A DNA stretch of 16,284 bases from Clostridiaceae bacterium. Lineage in GTDB: Bacteria; Bacillota; Clostridia; DSM-8532. Below are positions 1 to 15,473 of this stretch, one piece after another. The first letter of the stretch is position 1. Each line of letters begins with the position of its first letter. The notes beneath the pieces were generated by a model. It was not told where the DNA came from. It saw nothing but the letters and a program-made list of their open reading frames with translations, and ran no database searches. Location of the stretch: NCBI GenBank assembly GCA_025361665.1, contig JANYKF010000469.1, positions 1 to 16,284 of the forward strand, written 5' to 3'. The translations under genes and the position numbers were made by a program.

Positions 1-996
1 GTTCATGTAGTCATACGGATCTTCTCCTGTTGTTTTGGCCAAAGCCTCCTCCACCTGGGCAAAGTTGTTGCGCATCCACTTGTAGCTGAGGCCGGTGCTG
101 GAAAGAACGGCGATGAGCATATGAAGCCCGGGTATGCAGTGCGGGTACGTGATCGTGGTGGGATGGCTGATGACCTCCGCCGCATTCACGACGACATTGG
201 CCCCTGAACCAACGGACAGGTAGCATTGCCCTTCCCGGACCGCGCCGGTCGCGATGGCGACGGGAGAGGCGTCATCGACCCCGCCCAGCACAGGCGTGCC
301 CGGCGCCAGACCGGTCTCGAGCGCGGCCTGTTCCGTGACATGGCCCATGACTTCCCAGGCATCATGCAGCTTCGGGAACATGTCCCTGCGCAATCCCGCC
401 TTTTCGATGATCTCATCATCCCATTGGCCCGTTCCGGCATTGTATTGGCCGTAGAAACCCGCTTCCGTCCGGTTCCAGCCCCATATGCCGGTGAGTCTGA
501 AGTTGACCCAGCTGACTTCGGTCGAAAAATAGGCCGCTTTCCCGTAAACCTGCGGCCTGTGCTTCATCCACCAGTATTGCTTGGCAAGCCCGCTGTACAT
601 GCCCGGGAAGTTGCCGTTTCTTTCCACGCAGAGCGGGCCCACGGCGGCGTCAAGCTCCGCCACATCTGCCATGTGCCGCATGTCGTTGTAGTGAACGGGA
701 TTGCACAGCGGTTTGCCCTGCGCGTCCACCAGAAACGCCATCACCGCCCAGCCGCCGAAGCAGATACCCGCCACCAGCGAAGGATCGACGCCTGCCGCCC
801 ACCCTTTTTTTAGCAGGTCCCCTATGTGTTTCCACCATTGTTCCGCATCATATTCGATCCAATCCGGATTTTCCGCCTTGACCGGGAAGATCTCCGCCGT
901 CTGCGTCGTCACCAGCCGGCCGTCGACAGCATCCAGAAAAACAGCCTTCATCATGGTCGTCCCGATGTCGATTCCAATGAGATATCTTTTGTCCAT
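1..996 (-). CDS. FGGY-family carbohydrate kinase, 3' end truncated by window edge
   Basis: This is an ATP-dependent sugar kinase of the FGGY family (xylulokinase/ribulokinase-like), cytoplasmic. It probably phosphorylates the ketose that feeds this operon. The visible 332 residues cover the N-terminal domain and part of the C-terminal domain; complete members have about 500. The phosphate-binding strand GIDIGTT is at residues 8-14. A sugar-site stretch with YNDMR is at about 103-107. The expected catalytic aspartate lies in GGVDDA (D241). The start at 996 follows a GGGAGGG ribosome site 6 nt upstream. The gene begins 36 bp after the epimerase stop, so it is a late gene of the operon. The substrate cannot be read from the sequence. 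Its UlaE-like neighbour suggests an L-xylulose/L-ribulose-type sugar, but the altered active sites of its neighbours argue for caution. Confidence 0.92.
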   Translation of the reverse strand, partial: MDKRYLIGIDIGTTMMKAVFLDAVDGRLVTTQTAEIFPVKAENPDWIEYDAEQWWKHIGDLLKKGWAAGVDPSLVAGICFGGWAVMAFLVDAQGKPLCNPVHYNDMRHMADVAELDAAVGPLCVERNGNFPGMYSGLAKQYWWMKHRPQVYGKAAYFSTEVSWVNFRLTGIWGWNRTEAGFYGQYNAGTGQWDDEIIEKAGLRRDMFPKLHDAWEVMGHVTEQAALETGLAPGTPVLGGVDDASPVAIATGAVREGQCYLSVGSGANVVVNAAEVISHPTTITYPHCIPGLHMLIAVLSSTGLSYKWMRNNFAQVEEALAKTTGEDPYDYMN

Positions 997-1032
997 TCGG
1001 AACCCTCCCAAAAAATGAACGGTGGAATGATC

Positions 1033-1872
1033 CTAGTAGTCTGCCATCTTCCTTTTTAAAAACGCGATTGCCGTGTAGATTTTCTCATGATTCGCCGGAT
1101 TATCGTGGGACCACATCTCCGCCGCCATGAACCCCTGGTACCCGATGTCATGAAGCGCCCTGAAACAGGCATCGAAATCCATGATGCCCTCGCCGAATGC
1201 GACATCCCGCACGATGCCCGGGAGCACGTCCTTGAACTCCACTTCTACAATGTGCTTTCCCCCGATCGGAAAATCCACGAGCGGGTTGTTCCCCATGGCC
1301 GCGATATTGCCGGGATCCACGCCGACCTGCAGGAAAGCGCTGTCGAACGCGCGGACATAGTTCATCGCCTTATGCGTGGTATCCATGAAATCGCTGTCCA
1401 TCGTCTCCAGTGAAATAATGACGCCCCGGATGGCGGCATGATTCAGGCAACGCTCCAGGGATTGCCTGAAATAGGCCTCCGTCATCATGTTGCGGCGGGC
1501 AGTCTCATACTCATCATAGCTGGCGATTTGCACCGTTCTTGCCCCGACAAACGCAGCAAAGTCAATGGCGGCATCCAGGAGCTCTACACCTTTCTCCCTG
1601 ATGGACGTATCCTCGCTCCCCAACGGAAAAAAGCGGTTTGCGGTAAAGGCGAATGTGTAAAGCGGCACATCCATTTTTTCGGACATGCGCCGGATTTGCA
1701 GCTTTTCATCCCGGTCGTAAAGGCGGCGCAGCCGCTCCGGTGTGGCGTCGATGGAAATCTCCAGGTAATCATATCCCGCCGCTTTGACGAGGGAAAATTT
1801 TTCTTCCCAGCTCAGGCTGTTGCAGATGGATTTTTCATACAATCCAAAGGGCAGGTCCCGCAGTTTCAGCAT
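1033..1872 (-). CDS. UlaE/SgbU-like L-ribulose-5-phosphate 3-epimerase family protein with an altered metal ligand
   Basis: This TIM-barrel sugar-phosphate epimerase/isomerase has 279 aa. The E. coli enzyme UlaE, about 284 aa, interconverts L-xylulose-5-P and L-ribulose-5-P. Similarity runs along the whole length: the GLYEKS start, FPLGSEDTSIR at 82-92, LETMD at 155-159, DPGN at 186-189, FGEGIMDF at 226-233 and AEMW at 251-254. UlaE, as I recall, binds its metal through Glu155, Asp185, His211 and Glu251. Three have counterparts here (E155, D186, E252). The His of UlaE's VHVKD is a Glu in VEFKD (E212). That change may alter the metal or the substrate, so the UlaE reaction is not certain. The start has AGGAGGGAA just upstream. 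The gene lies 27 bp after E2 and 36 bp before the kinase, within one operon. Confidence 0.88.
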   Translation of the reverse strand: MLKLRDLPFGLYEKSICNSLSWEEKFSLVKAAGYDYLEISIDATPERLRRLYDRDEKLQIRRMSEKMDVPLYTFAFTANRFFPLGSEDTSIREKGVELLDAAIDFAAFVGARTVQIASYDEYETARRNMMTEAYFRQSLERCLNHAAIRGVIISLETMDSDFMDTTHKAMNYVRAFDSAFLQVGVDPGNIAAMGNNPLVDFPIGGKHIVEVEFKDVLPGIVRDVAFGEGIMDFDACFRALHDIGYQGFMAAEMWSHDNPANHEKIYTAIAFLKRKMADY

Positions 1873-1885
1873 ATTCCCTCCTGAG

Positions 1886-1940
1886 GAAGCACCTTCACGC
1901 TATTGCGACAAGAAAAAGTCTTGGAGAAGCACCTTCACGC
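1886..1940. repeat. 15-bp direct repeat, two copies 40 bp apart, at the E2/epimerase junction
   Basis: GAAGCACCTTCACGC occurs at 1886-1900 and again at 1926-1940. The second copy is inside the last codons of E2. The first spans the base after the E2 stop and the gap before the epimerase. It looks like a partial tandem duplication of the E2 3' end. Confidence 0.8.
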
Positions 1941-3156
1941 GCCTCAGGAACCTGGAAGCGGGCGCTCCGTCAATCACCCTGTGGTCATATGTCAGCGACA
2001 GCATCATGATCTTGCGTGGCGCGAGTATTTCACAGGCTTCATCCGCATATCGCGGCAGCGTCCTGACAGTGCCTGCGCCAAGAATGGCCGTCTGCGGATA
2101 GTTGATGATGGGCGTGAAGAAATCGACATCGAGCATGCCGACATTCGAGACAGTGAACGTGCCATTCTTCATTTCCTCGTTCGTCAGCCTGCCCATCTGC
2201 GCCTTGGAGGAAAAATCGGCGATCTCCTGCGAGATGACAAGAAGATCCTTCGTGTCAGCCTTTCTGACGACAGGAACAACCAAACCTCCCGGGATATCCA
2301 CAGCACAGGAAATATTCACCTCGCTCCTGAAAATGATTTCATCCGAGGCCTCGTTCAATGAGGTATTGATGATCTCAAACTCCCGCAATGCCAGCGCACA
2401 GGCTTTGACAATCACGGCAGTGACGGAAGGTTTCTTCCCTTCGTCCTTCATGGCCTTCAACATCCGAAAGGTGTCCGTCATGTCCACTTCCATGAAATTA
2501 GTCAGTCTCGCGGTCCTGCCGCAGCTCTCAGACATGTTTTTCGCGATGGATTTCCGCATGGCGGACATCTTTTCGCACCGGTCGCCAACAGCCGTTTCCA
2601 CAGACTTGACGGTTGCCGCCCGGCTCCTCTGAAACGCCAGAACCTCATCCTCCGTAATTCTCCTCCCGGCGCAGAAAGCAGCCAGGGCAGCAGGATCGAT
2701 GTTCAGATCCCTGACAAGGTTTCTCACCTTCGGCATCATTTTCAGCGGAATCTCCGGTTCTTTGCCTGCAGCCGGTTCCATGTCCACAGCCATTTGCCTG
2801 CCGTCAAGCGGCGGATGGCCACTCGCATCAGGCGTGCCCGGCTGCCCGGATTGACTCGTCGCATCAGGCGTGCCGGGTTTGCTGCCGATTTGTGCAAGCA
2901 AGCCCGAGATATCCTCTCCCGGGCTTCCGATGATGGCGATAGGCGCCGCGACAGGGTATTCAGAACCTTCTTCGCCAATCCGCCTCAGCAGGGTTCCGGC
3001 GACCATGGACAGCATGTCCTCTGTTTCCTTCGCATTCTCGATCGAGCACAGGGGCTCATCGACTGCGACAGTTTCCCCCACGGCCTTGTGCCATTTTGCC
3101 AGATACCCTTCTTCCATTGTGAGGTTCATTTTCGGCATAACGATGATTTCTGCCAT
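1900..3156 (-). CDS. Dihydrolipoamide acyltransferase (E2) of a 2-oxoacid/acetoin-dehydrogenase-type complex
   Basis: This is the E2 core enzyme: it takes an acyl group from E1 on a swinging lipoyl arm and passes it to CoA. Domain order is a lipoyl domain at about 1-80 with the lipoylated lysine at K43 (IENAKE in place of the common ETDKA), a Pro/Gly/Asp-rich linker at about 90-138, a peripheral subunit-binding domain at about 140-175 (MPKVRNLVRDLNID, RITEDEV), and the acyltransferase domain from about 195. The catalytic motif DHRVIDG is intact (H392, D396). The 418-aa length is normal for a one-lipoyl E2. The start follows GGAGGGA at a suitable distance. The gene follows E1 beta by 39 bp. 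The acyl group could be acetyl, glycolyl or longer. No E3 is present in the window; it may be shared or lie past the left edge. Confidence 0.93.
   Translation of the reverse strand: MAEIIVMPKMNLTMEEGYLAKWHKAVGETVAVDEPLCSIENAKETEDMLSMVAGTLLRRIGEEGSEYPVAAPIAIIGSPGEDISGLLAQIGSKPGTPDATSQSGQPGTPDASGHPPLDGRQMAVDMEPAAGKEPEIPLKMMPKVRNLVRDLNIDPAALAAFCAGRRITEDEVLAFQRSRAATVKSVETAVGDRCEKMSAMRKSIAKNMSESCGRTARLTNFMEVDMTDTFRMLKAMKDEGKKPSVTAVIVKACALALREFEIINTSLNEASDEIIFRSEVNISCAVDIPGGLVVPVVRKADTKDLLVISQEIADFSSKAQMGRLTNEEMKNGTFTVSNVGMLDVDFFTPIINYPQTAILGAGTVRTLPRYADEACEILAPRKIMMLSLTYDHRVIDGAPASRFLRRVKVLLQDFFLSQ
2824..2874. repeat. In-frame 36-bp-spaced duplication in the E2 linker
   Basis: CGCATCAGGCGTGCC occurs at 2824 and at 2860, exactly 36 bp apart. 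In the E2 protein this gives two PGTPDA(T/S) segments (residues about 94-100 and 106-112) in the flexible linker after the lipoyl domain. The spacing keeps the reading frame. Confidence 0.8.
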
Positions 3157-3195
3157 GTTGGGAGTCCCTCCAATATTGCATCGTTCCCGCGTCCA

Positions 3196-4173
3196 TTACG
3201 CCATCAATTTACGGATCGCGTCCACGACATCCTTCATGCCGATGCTGATGCCCTCGATGAGCCTGCGGTTCGAGGGGCACGGGACATCCTTGCCTGCCAC
3301 GCGCAGAATGGGCGCACTCAGGTCTTCGATGCATTCCTCGGCGATGAAGGCGGCGATTTCCGCGCCGATGCCACCGGTCTTGTATCCTTCATAGGTGATG
3401 ACGACGCGCGAAGTCTTGGCCACGGATTTTCGGATCGCGTCCTTGTCATAAGGCAGCACCGTGCGAAGATCCAGCACTTCCACGCTGACACCTTCCTTTT
3501 CCAATTCCTCGGCCGCGCCCAGTGCGTCATGAACACCCACACCGTACGTAATGACCGTGACGTCCTTGCCTTCGCGCTTGATATCGGCCTTGCCGATCGG
3601 CACGATGTATTCCTCTTCCGGCACATCGCCTTTCAGCGTGTAGAGAGGCGAGTATTCCATGAATACAACCGGATCATTGTCCCTGATGGACGCCTTGATG
3701 AGCCCCTTCGCATCGTACGGGGTGGATGGGATGACCAGCTTGACGCCGGGGGAGTTCATGAATGTCGCGTCGAGATTGCCGCAGTGATGCGGACCGGATA
3801 TGATCCTCATCCAGTTGCATGTGCGGATGACCATGGGGCATGGGATTTTACCGCCGCTGACATAGTAAAGAGATCCCGCCTGGTTGTGAACCTCGTCCAC
3901 CACAAGTGTCATCAAGGAGCCGAACATGATTTCGACCACCGGCCGCATGCCGAATGCCGCAGCCCCCACGGCCACCCCGCCCAGCGCCCCTTCGGAAATG
4001 GCGGTCTCGATGACCCTGTCCTTGCCGAATTCCTCCTCCAGCCCTTTCGTGACGCCGAAAATACCTCCCTGCATCCCGCCTATGGCCTCGCCAATCTGGA
4101 ATACATCGGGGTCGCGGCGCATTTCCTCTATCATGCCTTCGCGCAGCGCATCAACGAATTTCATCTGTCTCAT
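3196..4173 (-). CDS. E1 beta subunit of a ThDP-dependent acetoin/2-oxoacid dehydrogenase-type complex
   Basis: This is the beta subunit of the ThDP-dependent E1 component; with E1 alpha it cleaves the substrate and loads the acyl group on E2. The sequence is AcoB/PdhB-like: FGVTKGLEEEFG, ISEGALGGVAVGAA (the Glu that activates ThDP), GPHHCGNLDATF where relatives have GPQHSQ (second His retained), PSTPYDAKGLIKA, DPVVFMEY, and a C-terminal transketolase-type domain with CPSNRRLIEG. I chose the start MRQMKFVDAL at 4173 because GGGAGGAA sits 7 nt upstream. An in-frame ATG at 4194 would place that ribosome site inside the coding region. The resulting length is 325 aa, normal for the family. It lies 174 bp after E1 alpha, with a tandem repeat array between them, and 39 bp before E2. 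Confidence 0.93.
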   Translation of the reverse strand: MRQMKFVDALREGMIEEMRRDPDVFQIGEAIGGMQGGIFGVTKGLEEEFGKDRVIETAISEGALGGVAVGAAAFGMRPVVEIMFGSLMTLVVDEVHNQAGSLYYVSGGKIPCPMVIRTCNWMRIISGPHHCGNLDATFMNSPGVKLVIPSTPYDAKGLIKASIRDNDPVVFMEYSPLYTLKGDVPEEEYIVPIGKADIKREGKDVTVITYGVGVHDALGAAEELEKEGVSVEVLDLRTVLPYDKDAIRKSVAKTSRVVITYEGYKTGGIGAEIAAFIAEECIEDLSAPILRVAGKDVPCPSNRRLIEGISIGMKDVVDAIRKLMA

Positions 4174-4230
4174 GGTTCCATTCCTCCCTGTCATTGCATC
4201 GGCAACCTTTTGGGACCTGTCGTGCGGACC

Positions 4231-4363
4231 CCGGCAATGGCTGAACCTATACCGGCAATGGCTGAACCTATACCGGCTGGCTGAACCTATACCGGCAATG
4301 GCTGAACCTATACCGGCAATGGCTGAACCTATACCGGCTGGCTGAACCTATACCGGCTGGCTG
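4231..4363. repeat. Short tandem repeat array, 21/19-bp units, between E1 alpha and E1 beta
   Basis: Six copies of the core CTGAACCTATACCGGC start at 4241, 4262, 4281, 4302, 4323 and 4342. Spacings are 21, 19, 21, 21 and 19 bp: the spacer is either AATGG or TGG. The last copy overlaps the end of E1 alpha and supplies its stop codon (4348-4350). The array fills most of the gap, ending about 40 nt before the E1 beta ribosome site. There are no unique spacers, so it is not a CRISPR array. Confidence 0.95.
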
Positions 4364-5307
4364 TAGACTTCATCGATGCCGTCGTACCGGTCCGGCACTG
4401 GGCTTGCCAAGGCAAAGCTCAAGGCGCCCTGCAGTTTCTGCCGAACATTTTCCTTAATCTGCAGATCCAAGGAATCCGTTAGTACGCCATCTATCCTGAG
4501 TCTCGTCTCAAACCGCAGGACGGGATCAAAATCGGGCTTCTTCATCGCTTCAACATTCTCCGGCAGGTTCCTCAGGTTGCTGACGCTGTCCGTCCATTTC
4601 GCCGTGATGCATTCCAGCAGGCAGGGACCGGATCCCTCCCGGATCTTCCGAACGAATTCAGCGGCTTTGGCATGGATGGCCAGGACATCGTTTCCATCCA
4701 CCGAGGCGCCTTCCATGCCATAAGCGAGCGCCCGTGTGGCGATGCGCTCGCCGGCCGTCGTCTCCGAGCACACATTCCACATCTGGCGGTCATTGTATTC
4801 GATCACGTAAAGAATGGGCAGTTTCTGCACCGCTGCCATATTCAAGCTTTCATGGAATACCCCCCGGTTGGTGGAACCTTCTCCGCCTACGGCAACGACC
4901 ATGACGCCGCGCTTCCGTGCGACAAAGCCCGCCCCGGTGGCAATACCCCACTGCTGCCCGACGACGGCGTTTCCGGTCATCGCCTTTTTGGTCATGTCCA
5001 TCAGGTGGATCTGGCCTCCGCGGCCTTTGGTGACGCCATCCACCCGCCCATAGAGCTCCGCCCACAGCGCATTGTAGTCGCAGCCGCGGGCGACGTAGTG
5101 CCCTCCACCGCGATGCCCTGTCACAAGATAGTCCGTGTCCGCATATACTTTGGCCAGCGAAGCGGGGATGGCTTCCTGCCCGAGGCAAGGCAGCATGTGT
5201 CCTTCGATCTCCCCTTTTTTGAACAGTTCAACCATCTTCAGTTCAGTTGTCCTGATCAACAGCATTGTTTCATAGATACCGAGCATTTCGCCACTTGTCG
5301 GTTGCAT
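4348..5307 (-). CDS. E1 alpha subunit of a ThDP-dependent acetoin/2-oxoacid dehydrogenase-type complex
   Basis: This is the alpha subunit of E1, holding the ThDP-Mg site at the alpha/beta interface. AcoA/PdhA-like features are LLIRTTELK, GHRGGGHYVARG (relatives often have RGHGH), KGRGGQIHLMD, and the ThDP fold GGEGSTNRGVFHESLNMAAV followed by VIEYND. The usual Gly-Asp-Gly of this motif is Gly-Glu-Gly (142-144); N172 matches the second metal-ligand position. I chose the start MQPTSGEMLG at 5307 because GGAGGG lies 7 nt upstream; the in-frame ATG at 5337 has no such site. The protein is 319 aa, normal for acetoin-type E1 alpha. The C-terminal codons and stop fall in a tandem repeat. The substrate is unknown; acetoin dehydrogenase itself seems unlikely next to a sugar kinase and epimerase. 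Confidence 0.92.
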   Translation of the reverse strand: MQPTSGEMLGIYETMLLIRTTELKMVELFKKGEIEGHMLPCLGQEAIPASLAKVYADTDYLVTGHRGGGHYVARGCDYNALWAELYGRVDGVTKGRGGQIHLMDMTKKAMTGNAVVGQQWGIATGAGFVARKRGVMVVAVGGEGSTNRGVFHESLNMAAVQKLPILYVIEYNDRQMWNVCSETTAGERIATRALAYGMEGASVDGNDVLAIHAKAAEFVRKIREGSGPCLLECITAKWTDSVSNLRNLPENVEAMKKPDFDPVLRFETRLRIDGVLTDSLDLQIKENVRQKLQGALSFALASPVPDRYDGIDEVYSQPV

Positions 5308-5354
5308 AACGCTTCCCTCCAGATCCATCCCTGTCATCTTCGCGGCCTGTTTGA

Positions 5355-5444
5355 CCGCCCAACACGAGCCTTTCCCTCTTCATCAGCCGAAAACCCGCCC
5401 AACACGGGCCTTTCCCTCTTCATCAGCCGAAAACCCGCCCAACA
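5355..5444. repeat. 40-bp tandem repeat between the aldolase-like gene and E1 alpha
   Basis: A 40-bp unit beginning CCGCCCAACACGAGCCTTTC is present at 5355-5394 and again at 5395-5434 with one visible change (CGAGCC to CGGGCC). A third partial copy (CCGCCCAACA) starts at 5435. It lies in the 224-bp gap upstream of E1 alpha and shares no sequence with the other arrays here. Confidence 0.95.
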
Positions 5445-5457
5445 ACCCCCTACCGCA

Positions 5458-5475
5458 CAGCCGGCCCTGCGGCTG
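5458..5475. other. Hairpin-forming inverted repeat in the aldolase/E1 alpha gap
   Basis: CAGCCG (5458-5463) and CGGCTG (5470-5475) are perfect complements around a 6-nt loop. There is no T tract on either side, so this is not a standard intrinsic terminator. It could be an RNA processing or stability element between the first two genes of the operon. Confidence 0.4.
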
Positions 5476-5531
5476 CACTTATGAGCAATCCACCGGCAGG
5501 CACGGGCTTCATCCGCATGCAGGACCCTGAT

Positions 5532-6191
5532 TCACTTGATATGCTGCCCCACGACAGACTTGGCGAATGCATGGGCGCGACGCGTTTCATCCGGCGTGAG
5601 GAAATAGGGCTTGCCCATCTGCTCGGCGATGAAAGTCGTCTGTGCCGTCACCTCGCACGTGATGATGTTCTCGATGGACTCCTCCACCGTGCTGCCGCCC
5701 ACGACAAGGCCGTGGTTGCGGATATTGACCGCATAACCGCTGCCCATGGTGTCCACGATGTCCTGGAGGTATTCCGGCGTATGAGGATCCGGGTGCACCC
5801 AATGGGTGCAGGGGACCGGACCGCCCACGAGGTTGCCCTGCGTGGTGGTGATGACGGGAATTTCCCTGTTGAGTGCCGAAAAAGCCGTGGCATATCTTGA
5901 ATGGGCATGGGTGACGCAGAGAATGTCCGGCCTTGCGCGCAGAACGGCCGTGAACATGTCGCTGGCGCAGGATGGCCTTCTCTTCCCGTCCACCGGTTTG
6001 AGCGTATCGATGTCGATGACGCACATGTCTTCCCAGGTAAGGTTTTCATACTCCATGCCGCTCGGGGTGATCACGACAAGGTTTGTCTCCGGGTCGCGGG
6101 CGGCCACCGTTCCGCCTGCCATGACGATCAGGTCATATTCGCGCAGTTTCTTTCCTGCAATCAGGACGCGTTCCCTCAATTCTCTCAGCAT
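5532..6191 (-). CDS. Class II aldolase/adducin-family protein (FucA/AraD-like) with non-canonical active site
   Basis: This belongs to the metal-dependent family of L-fuculose-1-phosphate aldolase (FucA) and L-ribulose-5-phosphate 4-epimerase (AraD). It has TPSGMEYENLT at 42-52, RPDILCVTHAHSRYATAF at 87-104 with zinc ligands H95 and H97, and NHG with H160. At the place of FucA Glu73 (AraD has Asp) it has Ala76 (PSCASDMF). The phosphate-binding Asn of GNxS is Thr28 (GGTVAAR), and the Ser-Ser pair is Ser-Cys. It may therefore use an unusual substrate or mechanism. The start at 6191 has AAGGAAGG about 10 nt upstream and gives the usual 219 aa; an in-frame ATG at 6233 lacks a ribosome site. It is the first gene of the minus-strand operon, divergent from the SorC-type regulator. 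Confidence 0.88.
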   Translation of the reverse strand: MLRELRERVLIAGKKLREYDLIVMAGGTVAARDPETNLVVITPSGMEYENLTWEDMCVIDIDTLKPVDGKRRPSCASDMFTAVLRARPDILCVTHAHSRYATAFSALNREIPVITTTQGNLVGGPVPCTHWVHPDPHTPEYLQDIVDTMGSGYAVNIRNHGLVVGGSTVEESIENIITCEVTAQTTFIAEQMGKPYFLTPDETRRAHAFAKSVVGQHIK

Positions 6192-6267
6192 ATGGACCCA
6201 ACCTTCCTTTTTCTGATGCGTCTGTGGTTCCATGATTCATCAAATCGGTCATTCCATCGGTATTGTA

Positions 6268-6284
6268 TCACCGGCATGCGGTGA
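6268..6284. promoter_or_regulatory. Candidate operator palindrome
   Basis: TCACCG-GCATG-CGGTGA has perfect 6-bp arms around 5 nt. It sits directly upstream of the TACAAT minus-strand -10 candidate, where a bound repressor would block transcription of the aldolase-E1-E2 operon. The binding protein would most simply be the adjacent SorC-type regulator, which is inference. Confidence 0.45.
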
Positions 6285-6308
6285 ATCATACATGGCGGGC
6301 CATGACCC

Positions 6309-6337
6309 TTGCACATATGAGCATGTTGTTGTATGAT
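6309..6337 (+). promoter_or_regulatory. Candidate sigma-70-type promoter for the SorC-type regulator
   Basis: TTGCAC (6309-6314), a 17-bp spacer, and TATGAT (6332-6337) give a reasonable -35/-10 pair on the plus strand, about 80 bp before the regulator start. The -10 overlaps the TGTATGAT half-site, which would allow autoregulation. Confidence 0.4.
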
Positions 6338-6418
6338 CGCCATGCCATTGCTGCGCCATCGGGAAACCAGAATTGGCTTTCCAACGGAAATTCTGCAGTC
6401 GGAAGGAGGCATCAGGAT

Positions 6419-7393
6419 ATGCTGTTCGAGGAGAATCGGGAATCCCTGGGCAAAATCGCCACCTTGTACTATCTGGGCGAGTTGTCCCAGGATGAGATAG
6501 CGGAAATGTACGGTATATCCCGGTTCAAGGTTTCCCGCATCCTGAAAAAATGCCGGGAGTACCATATCATCGAGTTTCACATCAACAACAAACCAGAATA
6601 CTATCGCAAGCTGGAGACGCAATTGTGCGAGTGGATGAAGATTGACGCAGCGGTGATCGTCGCATCCGGGTCCACCCTCAATGAATCCAAGACCAATGTG
6701 GGACGCGCGGCGGCAAGGTACCTGGGTGAATCGCTGAAAGACGGCATGACGGTTGGCCTTGACTGGGGAACCACGCTGCAGGCGATGGTACGGGAGTACA
6801 ACTACCCCGGTCAATGCAAGGATTGCCTGTTCGTACAGATATCCGGCAGCGTCGCATCCCAATCCACCGTCAGCACGGACTATGTGGACGGCCATGACCT
6901 GGTCAGGAATCTGGCCGCGAAGGCCGGGGCAAGCTGGTCCCTTTTTCCCGCCCCTTACATCGTGAAGGACCGGCTGCTGTGCACTATGCTGCTGGAAGAA
7001 CCCGCCATTCGGAAACACATTGATCTGTTTGACAAAATCGACACGGCCATCTTCGGCATCGGTTCTTCGGTTTCACAGAACCTCAGTGCATTCTATCGGA
7101 TCTTTCTGTCGCCGGAGGAATGGGAACAGCTTCTGACCTATGATAGCGCAGGAGAAGTATTCAGCAACAGGCTGACGATGGAAGGCACGGTCATCGAAAC
7201 GTTTCTGACCGGCCGCGTGCTGACCATCGGGCTGGCACAGCTGAAGCGCATCCCGAACGTCGTCGTGCTGGGCGCGGGCGCAGACAAGGCCCTATCGCTC
7301 ATCGCCGCGGCGAAAGGCGGTTTCTTCAATAGGATGATCATCGACGAAGTCACCGCGCTGAGCATCCTGCATCATTTCGAAACAACCGGGTGA
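6419..7393 (+). CDS. SorC/DeoR-type (sugar-binding domain) transcriptional regulator
   Basis: This DNA-binding regulator of the SorC family has 324 aa. The N-terminal helix-turn-helix is at about 16-45 (YYLGELSQDEIAEMYGISRF, then KVSRILKK). The C-terminal effector domain resembles a sugar-phosphate isomerase, with GLDWGTTL and the typical ending VVVLGAGADKALSLIAAAKG, FNRMIIDEVTA. The start at 6419 is supported by GGAAGGAGG 9 nt upstream and by matching the usual family start just before the helix-turn-helix; the frame stays open upstream to 6263 without a ribosome site. It is divergent from the kinase/E1-E2 operon and is most likely its local regulator. The effector is probably a phosphorylated intermediate made by that operon's kinase, which is inference. 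Confidence 0.93.
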   Translation: MLFEENRESLGKIATLYYLGELSQDEIAEMYGISRFKVSRILKKCREYHIIEFHINNKPEYYRKLETQLCEWMKIDAAVIVASGSTLNESKTNVGRAAARYLGESLKDGMTVGLDWGTTLQAMVREYNYPGQCKDCLFVQISGSVASQSTVSTDYVDGHDLVRNLAAKAGASWSLFPAPYIVKDRLLCTMLLEEPAIRKHIDLFDKIDTAIFGIGSSVSQNLSAFYRIFLSPEEWEQLLTYDSAGEVFSNRLTMEGTVIETFLTGRVLTIGLAQLKRIPNVVVLGAGADKALSLIAAAKGGFFNRMIIDEVTALSILHHFETTG

Positions 7394-7456: not shown

Positions 7457-8371
7457 TCATTCCGGTTCACGAATTCCCGGCCTCATCAGCCTGTGCAATG
7501 TCTCTCCGGCAAGTCTCATCTCTTCCGCGGATGGAATCCAGTCTTTTCTCCCGTTGTCTCCCAATCCCATCTGTTCACTCTTCGACCCGCCATAGGGATG
7601 ATAGGAAAGAAGCTCCACCCCGATGCAGTGTTTCAGACCGGAAGCCGTTTCCGCGAGCGAATGAAGATGTTCTTCCTCCAGGTTGATTCCTTTTGCCAGC
7701 ATGCTTCGCAGGAGGATTTTCGATCCCAGCGCATCCGCCGCGCGAAGGTTTTTCAGGATCAGTGCATTGGATACGCCTGTATATTCCTTGTGGCGTTTCG
7801 CGTTTCCATCCTTGAAGTCCCAGAGAAACAAATCCGTAAGCGCCGCAATCGGGGCAAGATGGGTTGCATCGAAATGGCCGGCCGTTTCCACGACTGTGTT
7901 CAGGCCGTTGTCCTTCGCGAGACGAAGGAGTTCCAGACAGCCGCCCGCCTGCAGCAAGGGTTCTCCGCCGGAAAGGGTGATTCCCCCCTTTTCCCCGTAG
8001 AACACTTTATCCTTCAGGACGATTTCCATGATTTCAACCGGATCCAGCATGCGGCTGACAGGTTCGACAGCCTTCGCAGGGCATGCCTCCGTGCATCGGA
8101 AACAGCCTTTGCAGAGGGTCGCATCATAATCATGCCTGCCGGTGCGTCCAAACGGATGCATCGAATGCGCGCCGTTCGGGCATGCCTTCACACAGGCTCC
8201 GCATCCGATGCATCTTCCGGCCACATAAAATAGCATCGGGCAGCCGGACTGCGTTTCCGGATTATGGCACCATGCGCACCGCAAGGGACAGCCCTGAAAA
8301 AACACGGTGGTTCGGACACCCGGCCCGTCATGCGTGCTGAAACGCTGGATGTTGGTGATGGAAAGCAGCAT
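7457..8371 (-). CDS. Glycyl radical enzyme activating enzyme (radical SAM)
   Basis: This radical-SAM activase (304 aa) places the glycyl radical on its partner, the GRE encoded just upstream. The radical-SAM cluster motif CPLRCAWC gives C28, C32 and C35. A ferredoxin-type insert carries two further 4Fe-4S motifs (C54/57/60/64 and C87/90/93/97), as in activases of dehydratase- and decarboxylase-type GREs. It is absent from PflA. The SAM-binding GGEPLLQ follows at about 138-144. The start is 4 nt after the GRE stop, and its ribosome site AAGGAG lies inside the last GRE codons, so translation is likely coupled. It converges on the SorC-type gene with a 63-bp gap that contains no clear terminator. 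Confidence 0.95.
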   Translation of the reverse strand: MLLSITNIQRFSTHDGPGVRTTVFFQGCPLRCAWCHNPETQSGCPMLFYVAGRCIGCGACVKACPNGAHSMHPFGRTGRHDYDATLCKGCFRCTEACPAKAVEPVSRMLDPVEIMEIVLKDKVFYGEKGGITLSGGEPLLQAGGCLELLRLAKDNGLNTVVETAGHFDATHLAPIAALTDLFLWDFKDGNAKRHKEYTGVSNALILKNLRAADALGSKILLRSMLAKGINLEEEHLHSLAETASGLKHCIGVELLSYHPYGGSKSEQMGLGDNGRKDWIPSAEEMRLAGETLHRLMRPGIREPE

Positions 8372-8375
8372 TCGA

Positions 8376-10508
8376 TCATACTCCTTGCGCAGTTCGTTCG
8401 ATCACCATTTCCTGCCACTCCGGACCCAGTGTCACAAATCGCGCGTTCCAGCCGGATACGCGGACAGAGAGGGTCTTGTAATCTTCCGGATTCGCCTGTG
8501 CCAGCCGCAGTACGGTGGCATCCACCACATCCGGCTGCAGGAAGAACCCCCCGAGCGCCACAAAACCCTTCAGGAGGGCGACAAGGGATTCGACCCCGTT
8601 CTCTCCCTGCACGGCCGTATGATGCAGTTTCACATCCAGGGCAGCGCCATTCGCCTGCCTGGACAGGTCGGCCTTGCAGTACGACCTGATCATGGCGGTT
8701 GCGCCGGCAGAATCCGTTCCCGGCGTGGGTGACGTGTTGGAAGAAAGGATGTCTCCCTTTCTGCGACCAAACGGAACGGCAGTCCGGAAAGGTGCCCACT
8801 CGATTTGACGTCCGAATGTGCTGACCCCTGCCGGAAACAGGATCGGGCAGCGTCCCTTCAGTTCCGCCACGATGCCGGCAAAATCGTTCAGGACATTGCA
8901 GGTGAATGCATCCGCCTCATCATGATCGTTCCCATAGTACGTGTATTGGTTCAGCACATATTGCCGCAGAGCTTCCTGTCCTTCCCAATTGCTTTGCAGG
9001 ATGGCCATCAGGCCACTGAAGGATACCTTGCGCTCCTCGAACACCAGCTTGTGAATCGCATACAGGCTGTTGCCTGCATCCGGTGCTCCGCCGATATGGG
9101 GAGACATGACATTGTAGCGCGCCCCCCCGCCCAGATAAGACAGTCCCGATTCGATGCACCCTTCGGTCAGCATGGAAACGGCGGAACAAGGGATGGCGGT
9201 GCGCCAGTGCCAATCGGCCCCCGGCAGCTGCCCTGTCCGGTCCCTGACAGTATCCCGGTAGATCCCTTCCACTGCCCGCTTCAAATCAGCCAGGTATTTG
9301 GCGTACAGGGAACCGAAATCGTCAAAAAGTGCCGGAGTGCCATTCAGGCCCAACGTATCGTTGAGCAGGATCTTCAGGCTGTCGAACGGGTAATATCCGA
9401 AGTGGGTCTTTCCCGGTACCTGCACTTCCCAGCAGCCATCGTTGGCGAAGCGGCGGGCCTCCGCGGTGGAGTATCCGAATTCCGTGAGGCTTTTGAGGAT
9501 CAGCGGTTCATTATAGGCCGCCACGATCCCACCGCCATGGCGTATGACTTCCGCCATTCGGGTCAGCAGTTTCTCCGGCGTATTTCCCCCGATACGGACG
9601 GAAACCGGAAAATCGCCGATGCCAAGTTCCTCGACGATGTCCAGAACCAGATAGGTCACTTCGTTGGTTACATCCTGGCCGTCCACGTCCATGCCGGACA
9701 AGACGATGTTCTGGTAATGGTGTGCATCTCCGCAGTCTTCCGGAATATCCCGGCGAATCCACTCGCAGCCCTTAATGAAGAATCCGGCCAAAATCTCCCT
9801 GGCTTCGTCCAGTGTCAGAACACCGGAAGCCAAATCCCGCTTGAGGAATCCCCCCAGCATTTCATCGATCCGGCCGATTCCCGGCCAGTTCCCGCAAAGG
9901 CGTTCGAAGGCAAAGACAAACCACAGGCTTTGAACCGCTTCGTGGAAATGGCGGGCCGGTTTGAACGGAACATGGATCAAATTGCCATGGATGGCAGGCT
10001 TCACGCGGGCCAATGCCTCCAGATACCTTTTGTGCCAGACACGCAAGGCACCGATCGTGTTTCGCATGCTCTCCAGGATTTCAATCTGCGGGGCACCCAG
10101 CGCCGGGTCAGCCAGACGCAAGATGAGTTCCTGAGCAATTCCGTCGATGCCGGTTTCCAGCACCTTGCCAAAACCAAGCGTGACGTGGCTGACGCTGTCC
10201 CACAGCTTTCCACCACGCCAAAATGCGGGAACCACGTGATCGATGGCACCCCCGAGCGTAGCGGCCCCGCTGACTGTTTCGAATTCGCAAATACGGATGG
10301 GCGCCATCTCGGCGATCCTGGCAATGGCCGCATCGTATTTCCCGTATTCCGTCATCCGTTCGAACCCGATGATGTCATCCACCGCAACCACGGGCGTTCG
10401 CAGGGATTCCTCGCCGTATCTGCCGTGCAGGGATTCCCAAGCGAATTCCCTGGTTTGCGCATTCAGCCGTATTGGCCGCTTTTCATTGAAGGCCGTGTAG
10501 AATTCCAA
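8376..10508 (-). CDS. Glycyl radical enzyme (PFL-like, dehydratase/eliminase type), substrate unknown
   Basis: This is a PFL-superfamily radical enzyme. The active-site loop is NDGCWEVQVPGKT, with thiyl cysteine C359 and the general-base glutamate E361 of the CxE motif that marks C-O or C-N eliminases (glycerol dehydratase, choline lyase). It is not the Cys-Cys pair of true pyruvate formate-lyase. A second family block, GCIESGLSYLGGGARYN, is at 450-466. The glycyl radical motif is RVSGWNARF with G686; the residue after Gly is Trp, where Tyr is usual. I call a TTG start at 10508, because GGGAGG lies 7 nt upstream and the longer frame would translate a 27-bp tandem repeat. The protein is 710 aa, shorter than most family members (about 780-850), mainly at the N-terminus. 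The activase follows immediately; an aldo/keto reductase precedes. It may dehydrate a polyol, sugar or sugar acid. Confidence 0.93.
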   Translation of the reverse strand: MEFYTAFNEKRPIRLNAQTREFAWESLHGRYGEESLRTPVVAVDDIIGFERMTEYGKYDAAIARIAEMAPIRICEFETVSGAATLGGAIDHVVPAFWRGGKLWDSVSHVTLGFGKVLETGIDGIAQELILRLADPALGAPQIEILESMRNTIGALRVWHKRYLEALARVKPAIHGNLIHVPFKPARHFHEAVQSLWFVFAFERLCGNWPGIGRIDEMLGGFLKRDLASGVLTLDEAREILAGFFIKGCEWIRRDIPEDCGDAHHYQNIVLSGMDVDGQDVTNEVTYLVLDIVEELGIGDFPVSVRIGGNTPEKLLTRMAEVIRHGGGIVAAYNEPLILKSLTEFGYSTAEARRFANDGCWEVQVPGKTHFGYYPFDSLKILLNDTLGLNGTPALFDDFGSLYAKYLADLKRAVEGIYRDTVRDRTGQLPGADWHWRTAIPCSAVSMLTEGCIESGLSYLGGGARYNVMSPHIGGAPDAGNSLYAIHKLVFEERKVSFSGLMAILQSNWEGQEALRQYVLNQYTYYGNDHDEADAFTCNVLNDFAGIVAELKGRCPILFPAGVSTFGRQIEWAPFRTAVPFGRRKGDILSSNTSPTPGTDSAGATAMIRSYCKADLSRQANGAALDVKLHHTAVQGENGVESLVALLKGFVALGGFFLQPDVVDATVLRLAQANPEDYKTLSVRVSGWNARFVTLGPEWQEMVIERTAQGV

Positions 10509-10533
10509 GTTGTTTCCTCCCGGTTCACGATGA

Positions 10534-10638
10534 ATGCGGTTCCATGGACTCTCCAGGATCATATGTTTATATGGACTCTCCAGGCTCATGCGGTTCCATG
10601 GACTCTCCAGGCTCATGCGGCTACATGGACTCTCCAGG
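10534..10638. repeat. 27-bp tandem repeat, four copies, just upstream of the GRE gene
   Basis: ATGGACTCTCCAGG occurs at 10544, 10571, 10598 and 10625, exactly 27 bp apart, joined by variants of CTCATGCGGTTCC. The array fills the 141-bp gap between the aldo/keto reductase and the GRE and ends about 12 nt before the GRE ribosome site. Read on the minus strand it is open in the GRE frame and would encode repeats of SLESPWNR. Each minus-strand unit also contains GGAGAG and ATG. Confidence 0.95.
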
Positions 10639-10649
10639 AAACTCGGGTT

Positions 10650-11762
10650 TCAGTATATGTCTTTGTCTGCCAGTTTATAATCGGCAATTCCCAGTTTCCG
10701 GATGATGTCGATGCCATACGGACACTTTGGCATGCAGATTCTGCATTCCGTGCAGCGATCCCCCTTGACAGACAGGTCCCTGTACAGGTTCCTCGCCATG
10801 CCATTGTTGCCGAACCAGAACCGCAGCCGTTGGCGCAGTGCGAAATCCGCCGTGTCTGTCACGGTTCCGTCCGCCATCTGGCGATCATAATATCCTTCAA
10901 GCCTGAAGATCTCCGGCATGTCGATCCCTTCAGGGCACGAGAGGCATTTTCCGCACTGGCGGCAAACATAGTTGCCAAGTTCCGGCGCGTCCCGATAGAG
11001 CTTCTCCTTGTCCTCATCGCTCATCGGCACGAATGCTTCGGCATAGGAAAGATCCGCTTCCAGCATGGCACGGCTGTTGATGCCCCCGACCACGACGGAA
11101 ACCGGCTGGCTGAAGGCATACCGGAAAGCCGGTTCGGCGGAGCGGTACAGGAGGCCGTCGGCAACAGGCTTCATCAGGATGACGGCAACGTTTTTGGCGT
11201 TGGCAAGTGGAAGAAGGGTTTCCTCGATTTCGGGAAAATTGAAATGATCATAGTAATTGATCGTCGTCATCACCGCTCGGAACGGGTAGCGCCGGAGCGC
11301 CTCCACCAGGACATCCGGCTGACCGTGCATCGATAGGCCGATGAACCGGACCTTTCCTTCCCGCATGGCCTGTTCCGCGCCGGCAACGGCGCCATCCGGC
11401 GCGAGGATGGCGTCAAGGTCTTCCATGGTGCCTACTGCATGCATCAACAGCACATCGACGTACTCTGTCTTCAGATTGGAGAGGCTTCGGTTCACGGAAT
11501 CCAGGCATCCCTGCCTGCCTCGTTCTCCGGTTTTCGTGACCAGGATGTATTCGTCGCGCCGATGAGATACGGAGAGCCCGATCTTGCGTTCCGATTCGCC
11601 ATCGCCGTACCCGAAAGCTGTTTCAATATAGTTTCCGCCCGCGTCCAGATATCCGTTGAGCAAGACCCTGGCTTCCGCAAGCGGGATCTCCAGCAGGTGA
11701 AATCCGCCGAAACCCAGAATGGATGTGCGCAGCCCCGTATTCCCAAAATCACGTTTTTCCAT
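10650..11762 (-). CDS. Aldo/keto reductase with C-terminal 4Fe-4S ferredoxin-like domain
   Basis: This is a fusion-type oxidoreductase (370 aa). An N-terminal aldo/keto reductase barrel covers about 1-255. A C-terminal domain carries two cysteine clusters (C267/270/273/276 and C337/340/343/347, ending CPYGID), typical of a group common in anaerobes. The catalytic tetrad reads Glu47 (IETA, where Asp is usual), Tyr52, Lys77 (VTKTG) and His108 (LLMHAV). The Asp-to-Glu change is unusual. It should reduce an aldehyde or ketone, or oxidise the alcohol; the iron-sulfur domain may link it to ferredoxin. The start has GAGGAGGG 7 nt upstream. It lies 35 bp after the Uma2-type gene and before the GRE, so it may process the GRE substrate or product. 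Confidence 0.93.
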   Translation of the reverse strand: MEKRDFGNTGLRTSILGFGGFHLLEIPLAEARVLLNGYLDAGGNYIETAFGYGDGESERKIGLSVSHRRDEYILVTKTGERGRQGCLDSVNRSLSNLKTEYVDVLLMHAVGTMEDLDAILAPDGAVAGAEQAMREGKVRFIGLSMHGQPDVLVEALRRYPFRAVMTTINYYDHFNFPEIEETLLPLANAKNVAVILMKPVADGLLYRSAEPAFRYAFSQPVSVVVGGINSRAMLEADLSYAEAFVPMSDEDKEKLYRDAPELGNYVCRQCGKCLSCPEGIDMPEIFRLEGYYDRQMADGTVTDTADFALRQRLRFWFGNNGMARNLYRDLSVKGDRCTECRICMPKCPYGIDIIRKLGIADYKLADKDIY

Positions 11763-11797: not shown

Positions 11798-12532
11798 CTA
11801 GCCGAAAATTGAATGTACCGGTATGACCAGACCCTCGAACATGAATGACGCCGCATTTTCGCTGTCGTGGAAATTCCGGCTGTCGGCTACGTCCCCATTT
11901 TCAAATTTATATATTGTGATTTCCCGGTTGAAAGGATTTACGATCCAGTATTCGGAGACCCCGGTGGAGAGATAAAGATCCAGCTTCTTGACGGAATCCT
12001 TGCCAAGGGAGCTTTCCGACAAGATCTCGATGACCAGCGAAGGCACACCCATGTAGTAGCCCTTGTCATTCAAGTGCTCATCCAGGTCGCAGATCACCAT
12101 CAAGTCCGGCTGTACTACATTGGGTTTGTCAGCGCTTCGTTTCAGCGTGATGTCATAAGGGGCAAGCATGGGGCGGCAGCTTTTGTCGCGGAACCAGGCC
12201 GCAAAGTGATAATAAAGTTCACCCAGCGCCGTCTGGTGGATGGTCTTGGGCGAAGACATCCAATAGATCACGCCATCGATATACTCATACCGTTCCTCGC
12301 TCGAGTTGGTGAGTTCAAGAAATTCTTCAAAAGTGGCTTCCCGTGGATAAGCCGCATAGGCCGCCGCCCGTTCACTCACCATGAGAGTGGTTTCCGGATG
12401 GGTCTCAGGCTCTTTGTACGCGGTCAGCCGGGCCACTTTCTGGCCGTTGCTCAAGACGATGATGTCTTCGCGCATGGCTTCGCGCAGGTACTTGCCGAGA
12501 TTGTTTTTCAGATCGGTCGCATGTATCAACAT
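11798..12532 (-). CDS. Uma2-family (PD-(D/E)XK fold) protein with N-terminal Phd-like antitoxin domain
   Basis: This 244-aa protein has two parts. Residues 1-45 (ATDLKNNLGKYLREA, IIVLSNGQKVARLTAY) resemble the DNA-binding core of Phd/YefM antitoxins. Residues 65-244 match the Uma2/DUF820 family: RYEYIDGVIY at 81-90, PDLMV with D143, VIEILSESS with E169, KKLDLYLSTGVSEYWIVNP at 182-200. The D...ExL...K arrangement of the nuclease fold is kept. Uma2 proteins are widespread in some Bacillota and cyanobacteria, without a settled function. The start at 12532 follows GAGGAG by 6 nt. The frame stays open to an ATG at 12661 through two repeat arrays, but no ribosome site supports that start. It is the first gene of the minus-strand cluster and its relation to the metabolic genes is unclear. 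Confidence 0.87.
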   Translation of the reverse strand: MLIHATDLKNNLGKYLREAMREDIIVLSNGQKVARLTAYKEPETHPETTLMVSERAAAYAAYPREATFEEFLELTNSSEERYEYIDGVIYWMSSPKTIHQTALGELYYHFAAWFRDKSCRPMLAPYDITLKRSADKPNVVQPDLMVICDLDEHLNDKGYYMGVPSLVIEILSESSLGKDSVKKLDLYLSTGVSEYWIVNPFNREITIYKFENGDVADSRNFHDSENAASFMFEGLVIPVHSIFG

Positions 12533-12554
12533 ACGAATCTCCTCTGCATGACTA

Positions 12555-12588
12555 AAATAGCTGATTTGGCTTAAATAGCTAATATGGC
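12555..12588. repeat. Two imperfect 18-bp-spaced copies of AAATAGCT
   Basis: AAATAGCTGATTTGGC (12555-12570) and AAATAGCTAATATGGC (12573-12588) differ at two positions and are 18 bp apart. They overlap the candidate promoter of the Uma2-type gene. Confidence 0.7.
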
Positions 12589-12601
12589 CATTGTAACTCA
12601 A
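12572..12601 (-). promoter_or_regulatory. Candidate promoter for the Uma2/reductase/GRE cluster
   Basis: On the minus strand TTGAGT (12601-12596), an 18-bp spacer and TATTTA (12577-12572) form a plausible -35/-10 pair in a locally AT-rich stretch, about 40 nt before the Uma2-type start. The match is moderate. Confidence 0.3.
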
Positions 12602-12620
12602 CCACCCGAATAGCACAAGA

Positions 12621-12679
12621 TGAACGACCTTTGATTGAACGACCATTGATTGAACGACCATTGATGAACGACCATTGAT
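12621..12679. repeat. 15-bp tandem repeat, four copies, in the Uma2/enolase divergent gap
   Basis: TGAACGACCATTGAT-type units start at 12621 (one change, CCTTTGAT), 12636, 12651 and 12665; the third is one base short. On the minus strand each copy contains an ATG in the frame of the Uma2-type gene (MVVQS repeated), but the gene's own ribosome site favours a start far downstream. Confidence 0.92.
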
Positions 12680-12723: not shown

Positions 12724-12737
12724 CGAGTGACCACTCG
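12724..12737. promoter_or_regulatory. Inverted repeat abutting the ribosome site of the enolase-superfamily gene
   Basis: CGAGTG-AC-CACTCG has perfect 6-bp arms around 2 nt and ends directly before the GAAGGGAG ribosome site of the gene starting at 12754. It could be an operator. A 2-nt loop is too tight for a stable RNA hairpin with all 6 pairs, so a DNA site is more likely. Confidence 0.35.
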
Positions 12738-12753
12738 GAAGGGAGTCCAACAG

Positions 12754-14160: not shown

Positions 14161-14248
14161 CCGGGTTGCCAGGACATGGCCATCCGGCACCACGTCATCC
14201 CATTTTCTGTCATATCCGGCTTGAAGTTATTCGGGAGGGATTGTTGAA

Positions 14249-15451: not shown

Positions 15452-15473
15452 ATCGGCTTGCTCCTGACACTGG

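Follow-up and report, generated by a model that had tools for sequence, protein, structure and literature searches.

Several described systems bear on the locus discussed here. Acetoin dehydrogenase (AcoABC) and pyruvate dehydrogenase (PDH) pair E1α and E1β subunits, which use thiamine diphosphate (ThDP), with a lipoyl-carrying E2. Phosphoketolase and transketolase break the C2–C3 bond of ketose phosphates, also with ThDP. UlaE, UlaF and an L-xylulose kinase form a module for the L-xylulose 5-phosphate route, and in Lsr catabolism of autoinducer 2 (AI-2) the kinase LsrK acts together with LsrG and with LsrF, the last in a CoA-dependent cleavage. The window analyzed here is an entire contig of 16,284 nt (JANYKF010000469.1, C158 below) from the 2.6-Mb, 83% complete genome of a Clostridiaceae bacterium (GCA_025361665.1). 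It carries E1α, E1β and E2 genes on a single strand, flanked by an AraD/FucA-like (class II aldolase fold) gene on one side and by UlaE-like and FGGY sugar kinase genes on the other, with a divergent regulator; this layout, proposed in a first-pass annotation, agrees with the open reading frames (ORFs) and with Pfam and NCBIfam matches. The block is very probably a dedicated sugar-catabolic operon, and the substrate of its E1-E2 complex is probably derived from a sugar and is neither acetoin nor pyruvate. To the more specific reading, also raised in the first-pass annotation and partly supported by the present analysis, that the complex would cleave a ketose or ketose phosphate directly between C2 and C3, giving an acyl-CoA, we would assign a probability of roughly 0.45, judging from sequence.

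The argument starts from the E1α (4348–5337, minus strand, with a conserved start at 5307). In a tree of 53 sequences (30 clade members and 23 others, with human PDH alpha as outgroup), it belongs to a clade with support of 100/100, whose stem measures 1.04 changes per column. Outside this clade fall the acoA-annotated sequences (named by annotation only, and not biochemically characterised acetoin E1s), the pdhA-annotated ones, and three E1s linked to DXR-II genes (discussed below). The comparison suggested in the first-pass annotation thus yields no grouping with either annotated set or with the human protein. Subclade I (17 sequences, support 100/99) holds the window E1α, and subclade II (13 sequences, 95/87) holds loci from Spirochaetota and Actinomycetota. 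Fold and subunit organization are those of PDH E1 (models TIGR03182, TIGR03181 and PRK09212), and the best PDB relatives are human PDH E1 alpha for E1α (116.9 bits) and a bacterial PDH E1 beta for E1β (286.4 bits); unlike those enzymes, the window E1α is far under both curated PDH alpha cut-offs (TIGR03182, 236.4 against 393.85; TIGR03181, 165.3 against 411.35). A search with a clade profile separates the seven members found in genomes, which all reach 499.8 bits or more, from the next E1s, at 322.2 or less.

Clade E1αs are rare among the sampled genomes. At E ≤ 1e-90 there are matches in 12 of the 391 genomes of the window's class, but 11 of these score no more than 322.2 bits and the source genome alone reaches clade level (551.8 bits). 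Scans of five groups at E ≤ 1e-110 gave one genome of 298 (the class of genome G406), one of 151, one of 8, one of 147 and two of 35, nothing beyond the known clade genomes, and a scan of viral contigs gave no relative. Among 99 relatives, the top match outside the source genome is 37% identical.

Two histidine motifs distinguish the clade. Going by 26 outgroup rows, HRGHGH may be read as a mark of the acetoin/pyruvate E1 group: 24 have it, and one each has HRGHGY and YRGNGH. The clade set (P0001–P0103, including fragments and a hybrid-like row, P0093) has no HRGHGH among the 100 rows readable here, but HRGGGH in 92, HRGGGY in six, and HRGDGH and HRGAGH in one each; the window has HRGGGH. The second site is the GHS loop, whose His is present in all 26 outgroup rows (19 as GH). 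Here the loop reads xxxD(S/T) in 97 of the 100 clade rows that are legible, and is several residues shorter in the alignments (KWTDSVSNLR in the window); the exceptions are P0093, which has GH, and P0087 and P0103, which look broken. The ThDP motif is GGE in 102 of 103 clade E1αs (GGEG in the window), and mostly FGD in the outgroup. P50, W92, K247, D250 and R256 are each found in at least 95% of the 30 clade sequences of the tree and are rare in the 23 others; the new clade-specific Arg residues might bind phosphate. One member of the set, P0081, is an E1α-E1β fusion.

Compared with AcoABC, then, the window complex shares the ThDP-dependent E1α/E1β with a lipoyl E2, the Gly-Glu/Asp-Gly ThDP motif and the His-Arg of HRGxGH, but its clade has HRGGG(H/Y), a KWTDS-type loop in place of GH(S), and sugar kinase, epimerase-like and aldolase-like partners. 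The analogy with acetoin dehydrogenase drawn in the first-pass annotation holds for fold and cofactors, and is limited to these because the E1 has lost the two His motifs of that group.

The E1β (3196–4194, minus strand; Transket_pyr and Transketolase_C domains) just passes the NCBIfam subfamily model PRK09212 (324.8 bits, cut-off 321) and is below the equivalog PRK11892 (321.6 against 454). Its clade-specific W128, R130, P135, C138 and G139, from a comparison of six clade rows with 12 others, adjoin the conserved loop His. The E2 (1900–3156, minus strand; Pfam Biotin_lipoyl and 2-oxoacid_dh) has a lipoyl domain, a peripheral-subunit-binding-like segment recognized by eye, and an acyltransferase core; alignment with the E2s of loci L032 and L033 (described below) shows the lipoyl Lys and the catalytic motif retained in all three, the motif (DHRxxDG) being DHRVIDG in the window. 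An E1 of ThDP fold and an E2 with lipoyl Lys and HxxxDG place the whole, by sequence, among lipoyl-dependent complexes of the 2-oxoacid dehydrogenase type, at the level of the broad family. No E3 gene was found in the window, and some parts of the operon may sit on other contigs. Contig C291 of the same genome has a separate E1-E3-E2 set together with LipA-like and LipB-like ORFs (Lip names assigned by eye), so both lipoylation and E3 are probably available to the complex. E3-like proteins are found in all seven clade genomes, and PF00198 E2 domains in six; the PF00198 search of the remaining genome, G409, found no E2.

Whether the block recurs was examined in one genome from each of 84,980 species, scanned with two peptide patterns from the clade alignment, which can miss members. 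Of 32 loci found, six are in the E1α clade. Chloroflexi GWB2_49_20 (L032) has a regulator and then aldolase-like, aldo/keto reductase (AKR), E1α, E1β, E2, UlaE, kinase and ABC transporter genes, the last for a ribose-type solute-binding protein, an ATPase and a permease, all three recognized by eye; the solute-binding protein (RbsB, L032:15764-16771) had no PDB relative at E ≤ 1e-15. A Pelolinea genome has the same order spread over two contigs (L031 and L129), plus inserted Dabb and UroD-like genes. The six enzyme genes are thus together in two Chloroflexota genomes, beside ABC transporter genes, at 48–77% identity to those of the window (E1α 70–71%, E1β 74–77%, E2 48–53%, UlaE 70–72%, kinase 56% in L032, aldolase-like 74–75%).

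For metagenomic sequences, co-location was judged by assuming that E1α, UlaE and aldolase-like matches on contigs of exactly equal size were on the same contig. At all sizes, 17 of the 103 clade E1αs are found with a UlaE match (82 close) and 18 with an aldolase-like match (64 close); on contigs of at least 5 kb the counts are 16 and 14, or 23 different E1αs (28 at all sizes). Controls with outgroup matches (17 E1, 27 UlaE and 56 aldolase-like) gave none at or above 5 kb, and one match at 1,216 bp. All 28 co-located E1αs are in P0001–P0080 or are P0087, in the part of the clade that holds the window, with none among the other 22 of P0081–P0103; in that subclade the block is therefore conserved as a unit. 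The arrangement is not due to chance, being found again in a second phylum and on numerous metagenomic contigs. The neighbourhood, whose conservation the first-pass annotation proposed to test, is thus conserved in one of the two E1α subclades.

Loci elsewhere in the clade are more varied. E2 directly follows E1β in all four subclade-I genomes read (the window, L031/L129, L032 and L033). In L033 (Eubacteriales), a SorC-type regulator comes after E2, and an E3, identified by eye, is divergent beside E1α. In subclade II, L034 (Spirochaetota) has E1α, E1β, a short-chain dehydrogenase/reductase (SDR), an orthologous kinase (50% identity) and a similar solute-binding protein; there is no UlaE, aldolase-like or E2 gene at this locus, although E2 genes are present in other parts of its genome, and a class II fructose-bisphosphate aldolase (FBA)-like gene is in a divergent unit. 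That the kinase and the solute-binding protein are kept beside the E1 despite these losses suggests that the E1 is tied to the kinase product. L035 and L036 have E1α and E1β and no kinase; L036 also has an SDR, and the L035 contig ends 0.7 kb past E1β.

The proteins around the E1-E2 genes are likewise related to known ones and distinct from them. The FGGY kinase (1–1011, minus strand) is truncated by the contig end to its N-terminal two thirds; the C-terminal remainder, 65% identical to the L032 kinase, is found where a second contig of the source genome ends (G000:C87:2688-3200). The window kinase is XylB/AI-2-kinase-like, and under every curated cut-off listed: the full-length L032 kinase (L032:14035-15585) scores 322 against XylB (cut-off 380.25) and 250.5 against AI-2 kinase (cut-off 528), with the AI-2 kinase 5ya0 as its top solved relative (195.5 bits). 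UroD-superfamily-like genes, identified by eye and not closely alike, adjoin the kinase in Pelolinea (L129:13237-14334) and, downstream of the kinase piece on C87, in the window genome (L128:1595-2905).

The UlaE-like protein (1033–1872, minus strand), a TIM-barrel sugar-phosphate epimerase/isomerase, passes NCBIfam PRK13210 (236.5 against 200) and is under TIGR00542 (216.6 against 272.15) and PRK13209 (236.5 against 317). Its metal site reads Glu, Asp, Glu, Glu, with Glu as third ligand in place of the His of UlaE, where the ligands are presumably Glu, Asp, His and Glu. This Glu is found in 71 of the 78 nearest homologues (His in five, Gly in two); the 31 that are more remote all have His. 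A fused homologue, P0158 (482 aa, from a 29,956-base contig), was omitted from the alignment; in it, the lipoyl and subunit-binding-like part of an E2, without the E2 catalytic core, is joined in frame to a UlaE-like protein, which could be a fusion that exists in nature, the product of a deletion, or an artefact of assembly. The AraD/FucA-family protein (5532–6233, minus strand, conserved start near 6191) has Ala and Asn aligned to Asp76 and Asp120 of AraD, which we take to be the catalytic pair; Ala is common to wider relatives, so its presence at the first position is not specific to the block. The divergent SorC/DeoR/LsrR-type, sugar-responsive regulator (ORF 6263–7393, plus strand, with a start near 6419 estimated from homologue size) matches the Sugar-bind domain at 173.6 bits, and DeoR (153.9 bits) and LsrR (105.8 bits) below both cut-offs; regulators at L031, L032 and L033 are 45–48% identical to it.

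A plain L-xylulose/L-ascorbate UlaE-UlaF module, with which the window shares three protein families in one operon, was considered and rejected: the UlaE-like protein has Glu for the metal His, the AraD-like protein lacks the Asp76/Asp120 pair, and E1-E2 has been added. The separate E1 clade and the changed residues in the E1, UlaE-like and AraD-like proteins together argue against simply equating the operon with an acetoin, pyruvate or L-xylulose module already known.

The ketose-phosphate substrate, the bond cut, the products and the supply of E3 in trans are what we infer from this gene set. A ribose-type ABC transporter, as in the Chloroflexota versions, would import a sugar, which the FGGY kinase would phosphorylate as a ketose; the UlaE-like and AraD-like proteins would rearrange the ketose phosphate. 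ThDP on E1α/E1β would add at C2, and the C2–C3 bond would be broken. The two-carbon unit would pass to the lipoyl arm of E2 and leave as acetyl-CoA if the substrate were a 1-deoxyketose, or as glycolyl-CoA if it were an ordinary ketose, the remainder would be released as an aldose (triose) phosphate, and an E3 encoded elsewhere in the genome would reoxidise the lipoyl arm with NAD+. The proposed bond cleavage is that of phosphoketolase and transketolase; unlike in those enzymes, the acceptor would be lipoyl/CoA, with reduction of NAD+, and the E1 has the 2-oxoacid dehydrogenase fold. There are also likenesses to Lsr catabolism: the PDB entry nearest to the kinase is an AI-2 kinase, the regulator is LsrR/DeoR-like, the transporter is ribose-type (by eye), L031 has a Dabb barrel, and a CoA-dependent cleavage would be analogous. 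However, no LsrF-type gene was seen, the cleavage would be ThDP/lipoyl-dependent, and the kinase scores higher against XylB than against AI-2 kinase. An Lsr-like variant, acting on a 1-deoxy- or dicarbonyl pentose with help from the AKR and Dabb proteins, would be compatible with the Pelolinea gene set.

Ketose-phosphate chemistry is made more plausible by the linkage to kinase and transporter genes, and also by operons in which a gene for DXR-II (deoxyxylulose-phosphate reductoisomerase type II) accompanies an E1α of another clade. The three plasmid loci read (L142:5607-8967, L140:15780-21941 and L144:9001-16215), which come from Rhizobium sp. K15/93, Sinorhizobium chiapasense and S. meliloti Rm41, have a regulator, DXR-II, E1α, E1β and E2 in that order, followed by E3 in two and lipA in one, with glucitol-type phosphotransferase system (PTS) or ABC sugar uptake genes nearby. 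The Rhizobium DXR-II matches the solved oxidoreductase 3upl, which we take to be Brucella DXR-II, over nearly its full length (720.7 bits). In Priestia (L139), some 8 kb separate an E1α from a DXR-II-like gene (43.9% identical) of the same sugar cluster. When the 39 best of 60 plasmid DXR-II records were compared with the best 60 of 209 E1 records, 32 of the 39 had an E1α 2–166 bases downstream on the same strand; in six, "no E1" means none among those best 60 of 209. Two of the seven records without an adjacent E1α were read, that from Priestia and NZ_CP104972.1 (Phyllobacterium), in which DXR-II is in a sugar operon with no E1 annotated within 7 kb.

The Rhizobiales operons resemble the window in having E1α-E1β-E2, sugar-uptake genes and a sugar-binding regulator; two of the three that were read also have a sugar kinase. 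They differ in their E1 clade (with HRGHGH and the GHS loop) and in DXR-II itself, and no UlaE- or AraD-like gene is annotated in the stretches read. DXR-II directly before E1α suggests that E1-E2 cleaves deoxyxylulose 5-phosphate (DXP), and hence that such sugar-phosphate chemistry is plausible in nature; the reading we prefer, from gene order, is that methylerythritol phosphate (MEP) would be converted to DXP and then to acetyl-CoA and glyceraldehyde 3-phosphate. DXR-II is described as making MEP from DXP in a paper that also covers two related uncharacterised families (PMC3847144); its main text contains none of the terms "pyruvate dehydrogenase," "acetoin" and "E1 component." Searches of the open-licence literature yielded nothing on a DXR-II/E1 link, or on such E1 complexes in sugar catabolism or methylerythritol use.

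Several observations weigh against direct cleavage to acyl-CoA. The loop His is required for reductive acylation in PDH-type E1s, so lipoyl transfer might be inefficient once it is lost. An E3 gene is missing from the operon. The 13 kb of L033 include no kinase, UlaE or aldolase-like gene, and the best kinase match in that genome is 30% identical (33–34% in the L035 and L036 genomes), so the link between E1 and this kinase is not universal. The subclade-II loci L034–L036 show no E2 gene (that of L035 as far as its truncated contig extends), none was found in genome G409 and in G408 the E2 genes are elsewhere, so formation of acyl-CoA may not be clade-wide. As to the DXR-II precedent, which reads function from gene order, many of the 32 records are near-identical strains (six have E1αs of at least 98% identity), the E1s are of a different clade that has HRGHGH and GHS, and the scores of the three DXR-II-linked E1αs (396.7, 388.9 and 384.2, against the PDH alpha cut-off of 393.85) leave room for an ordinary PDH role.

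Other explanations account for parts of these data. The E1-E2 complex might act after a true aldolase step, with an AraD/FucA-like enzyme splitting the sugar phosphate and the complex oxidising the resulting aldehyde (glycolaldehyde or lactaldehyde), or a 2-oxoacid derived from it, to acyl-CoA. ThDP enzymes are able to add to aldehydes; the aldolase-like gene is within the conserved block and its product keeps the HxHS and later His motifs of its family; and an AKR is present in L031 and L032, the former scoring best against a methylglyoxal reductase model (177.6, under the cut-off of 550). We nevertheless think this unlikely: the acid/base position, presumably Asp76 in AraD and Glu73 in FucA, is Ala, Cys or Thr in homologues with a readable motif, and L034 has E1 and kinase without an aldolase-like gene, although its FBA-like gene could be set against this. 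The loci without E2 raise another idea, that the E1 is a transketolase-like ketol transferase to which E2 was added in one subclade only; members lacking E2 would pass a two-carbon unit to an acceptor aldose, as has reportedly been proposed for D-apulose-4-phosphate transketolase. The absence of E2 beside E1 in L034, L036 and the truncated L035, and the lack of any E2 match in genome G409, would be explained, as would the lost loop His, which is linked to lipoyl acylation. What makes us regard it as rather improbable is the E2 directly after E1β in the four subclade-I genomes read, its lipoyl Lys and catalytic motif being intact in the three aligned, and the E3, recognized by eye, beside the L033 E1.

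An ordinary acetoin or pyruvate dehydrogenase, making acetyl-CoA from pyruvate and present in a sugar operon by chance, has in its favor the E1β score just over the PRK09212 cut-off and the names given by one source to several clade E1αs (acetoin or pyruvate dehydrogenase subunits). It seems very unlikely, since E1α fails both PDH alpha models and is in a long-stemmed clade of its own, in which HRGHGH is absent from the 100 readable rows and the GH loop occurs in one of 103 members (P0093); moreover, the second E1-E3-E2 set, with its LipA/LipB-like ORFs, could fill the general role. A plain acetoin or pyruvate dehydrogenase was rejected on these grounds. Direct C2–C3 cleavage of a ketose phosphate is the reading that we favor over these.

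The rest of the window is of separate interest. A glycyl radical enzyme resembling pyruvate formate-lyase (GCWE and RVSGW motifs by eye) and its activase occupy 7457–10616 (minus strand); the enzyme scores far below the listed NCBIfam cut-offs, with 276.4 against 678.2 at best. Adjoining it is an AKR with a C-terminal 4Fe-4S region (10650–11762, minus strand). These three were rejected as members of the pathway, not being adjacent to the block in the Chloroflexota loci. They are followed by a Uma2-family protein (11798–12661, minus strand) with an N-terminal Phd/YefM-like part (the antitoxin match is under the gathering score), and by a second sugar-related cluster (12727–16283) of an enolase-superfamily enzyme, an apiosidase-like protein and a Gfo/Idh/MocA oxidoreductase. 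Because of the apiosidase-like gene (14249–15451), D-apiose catabolism was considered and then put aside; searches found no apulose, transketolase or apiose paper. The combination of FGGY kinase, TIM barrel and AraD/FucA aldolase would fit apiose operons. Four short tandem repeat arrays (4231–4363, 5355–5444, 10534–10639 and 12621–12679), with units of about 15–40 bases that differ from array to array, lie within intergenic gaps or at their borders. An Rfam search of the window had no match.

It is possible, if on balance doubtful, that bacteria have a wider class of "ketose-phosphate dehydrogenase complexes," ThDP/lipoyl E1-E2(-E3) assemblies that would cleave C2–C3 oxidatively to acyl-CoA and an aldose phosphate, conserving a thioester and NADH. 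These would have at least two origins, the HRGGGH clade (giving glycolyl- or acetyl-CoA and a triose phosphate) and the DXR-II operons (giving acetyl-CoA and glyceraldehyde 3-phosphate from DXP, in methylerythritol catabolism). The family of machines is already known; should the pathway be confirmed, it would be new within the reach of our searches. The linked kinase, the solute-binding protein and the DXR-II operons make the idea directly testable, and the clade-diagnostic motifs make re-annotation easy. If it is true, some genes automatically annotated as acetoin or pyruvate dehydrogenase are something else, and a PDH-type machine that cuts sugar phosphates straight to acyl-CoA would be a third route beside aldolase and transketolase/phosphoketolase.

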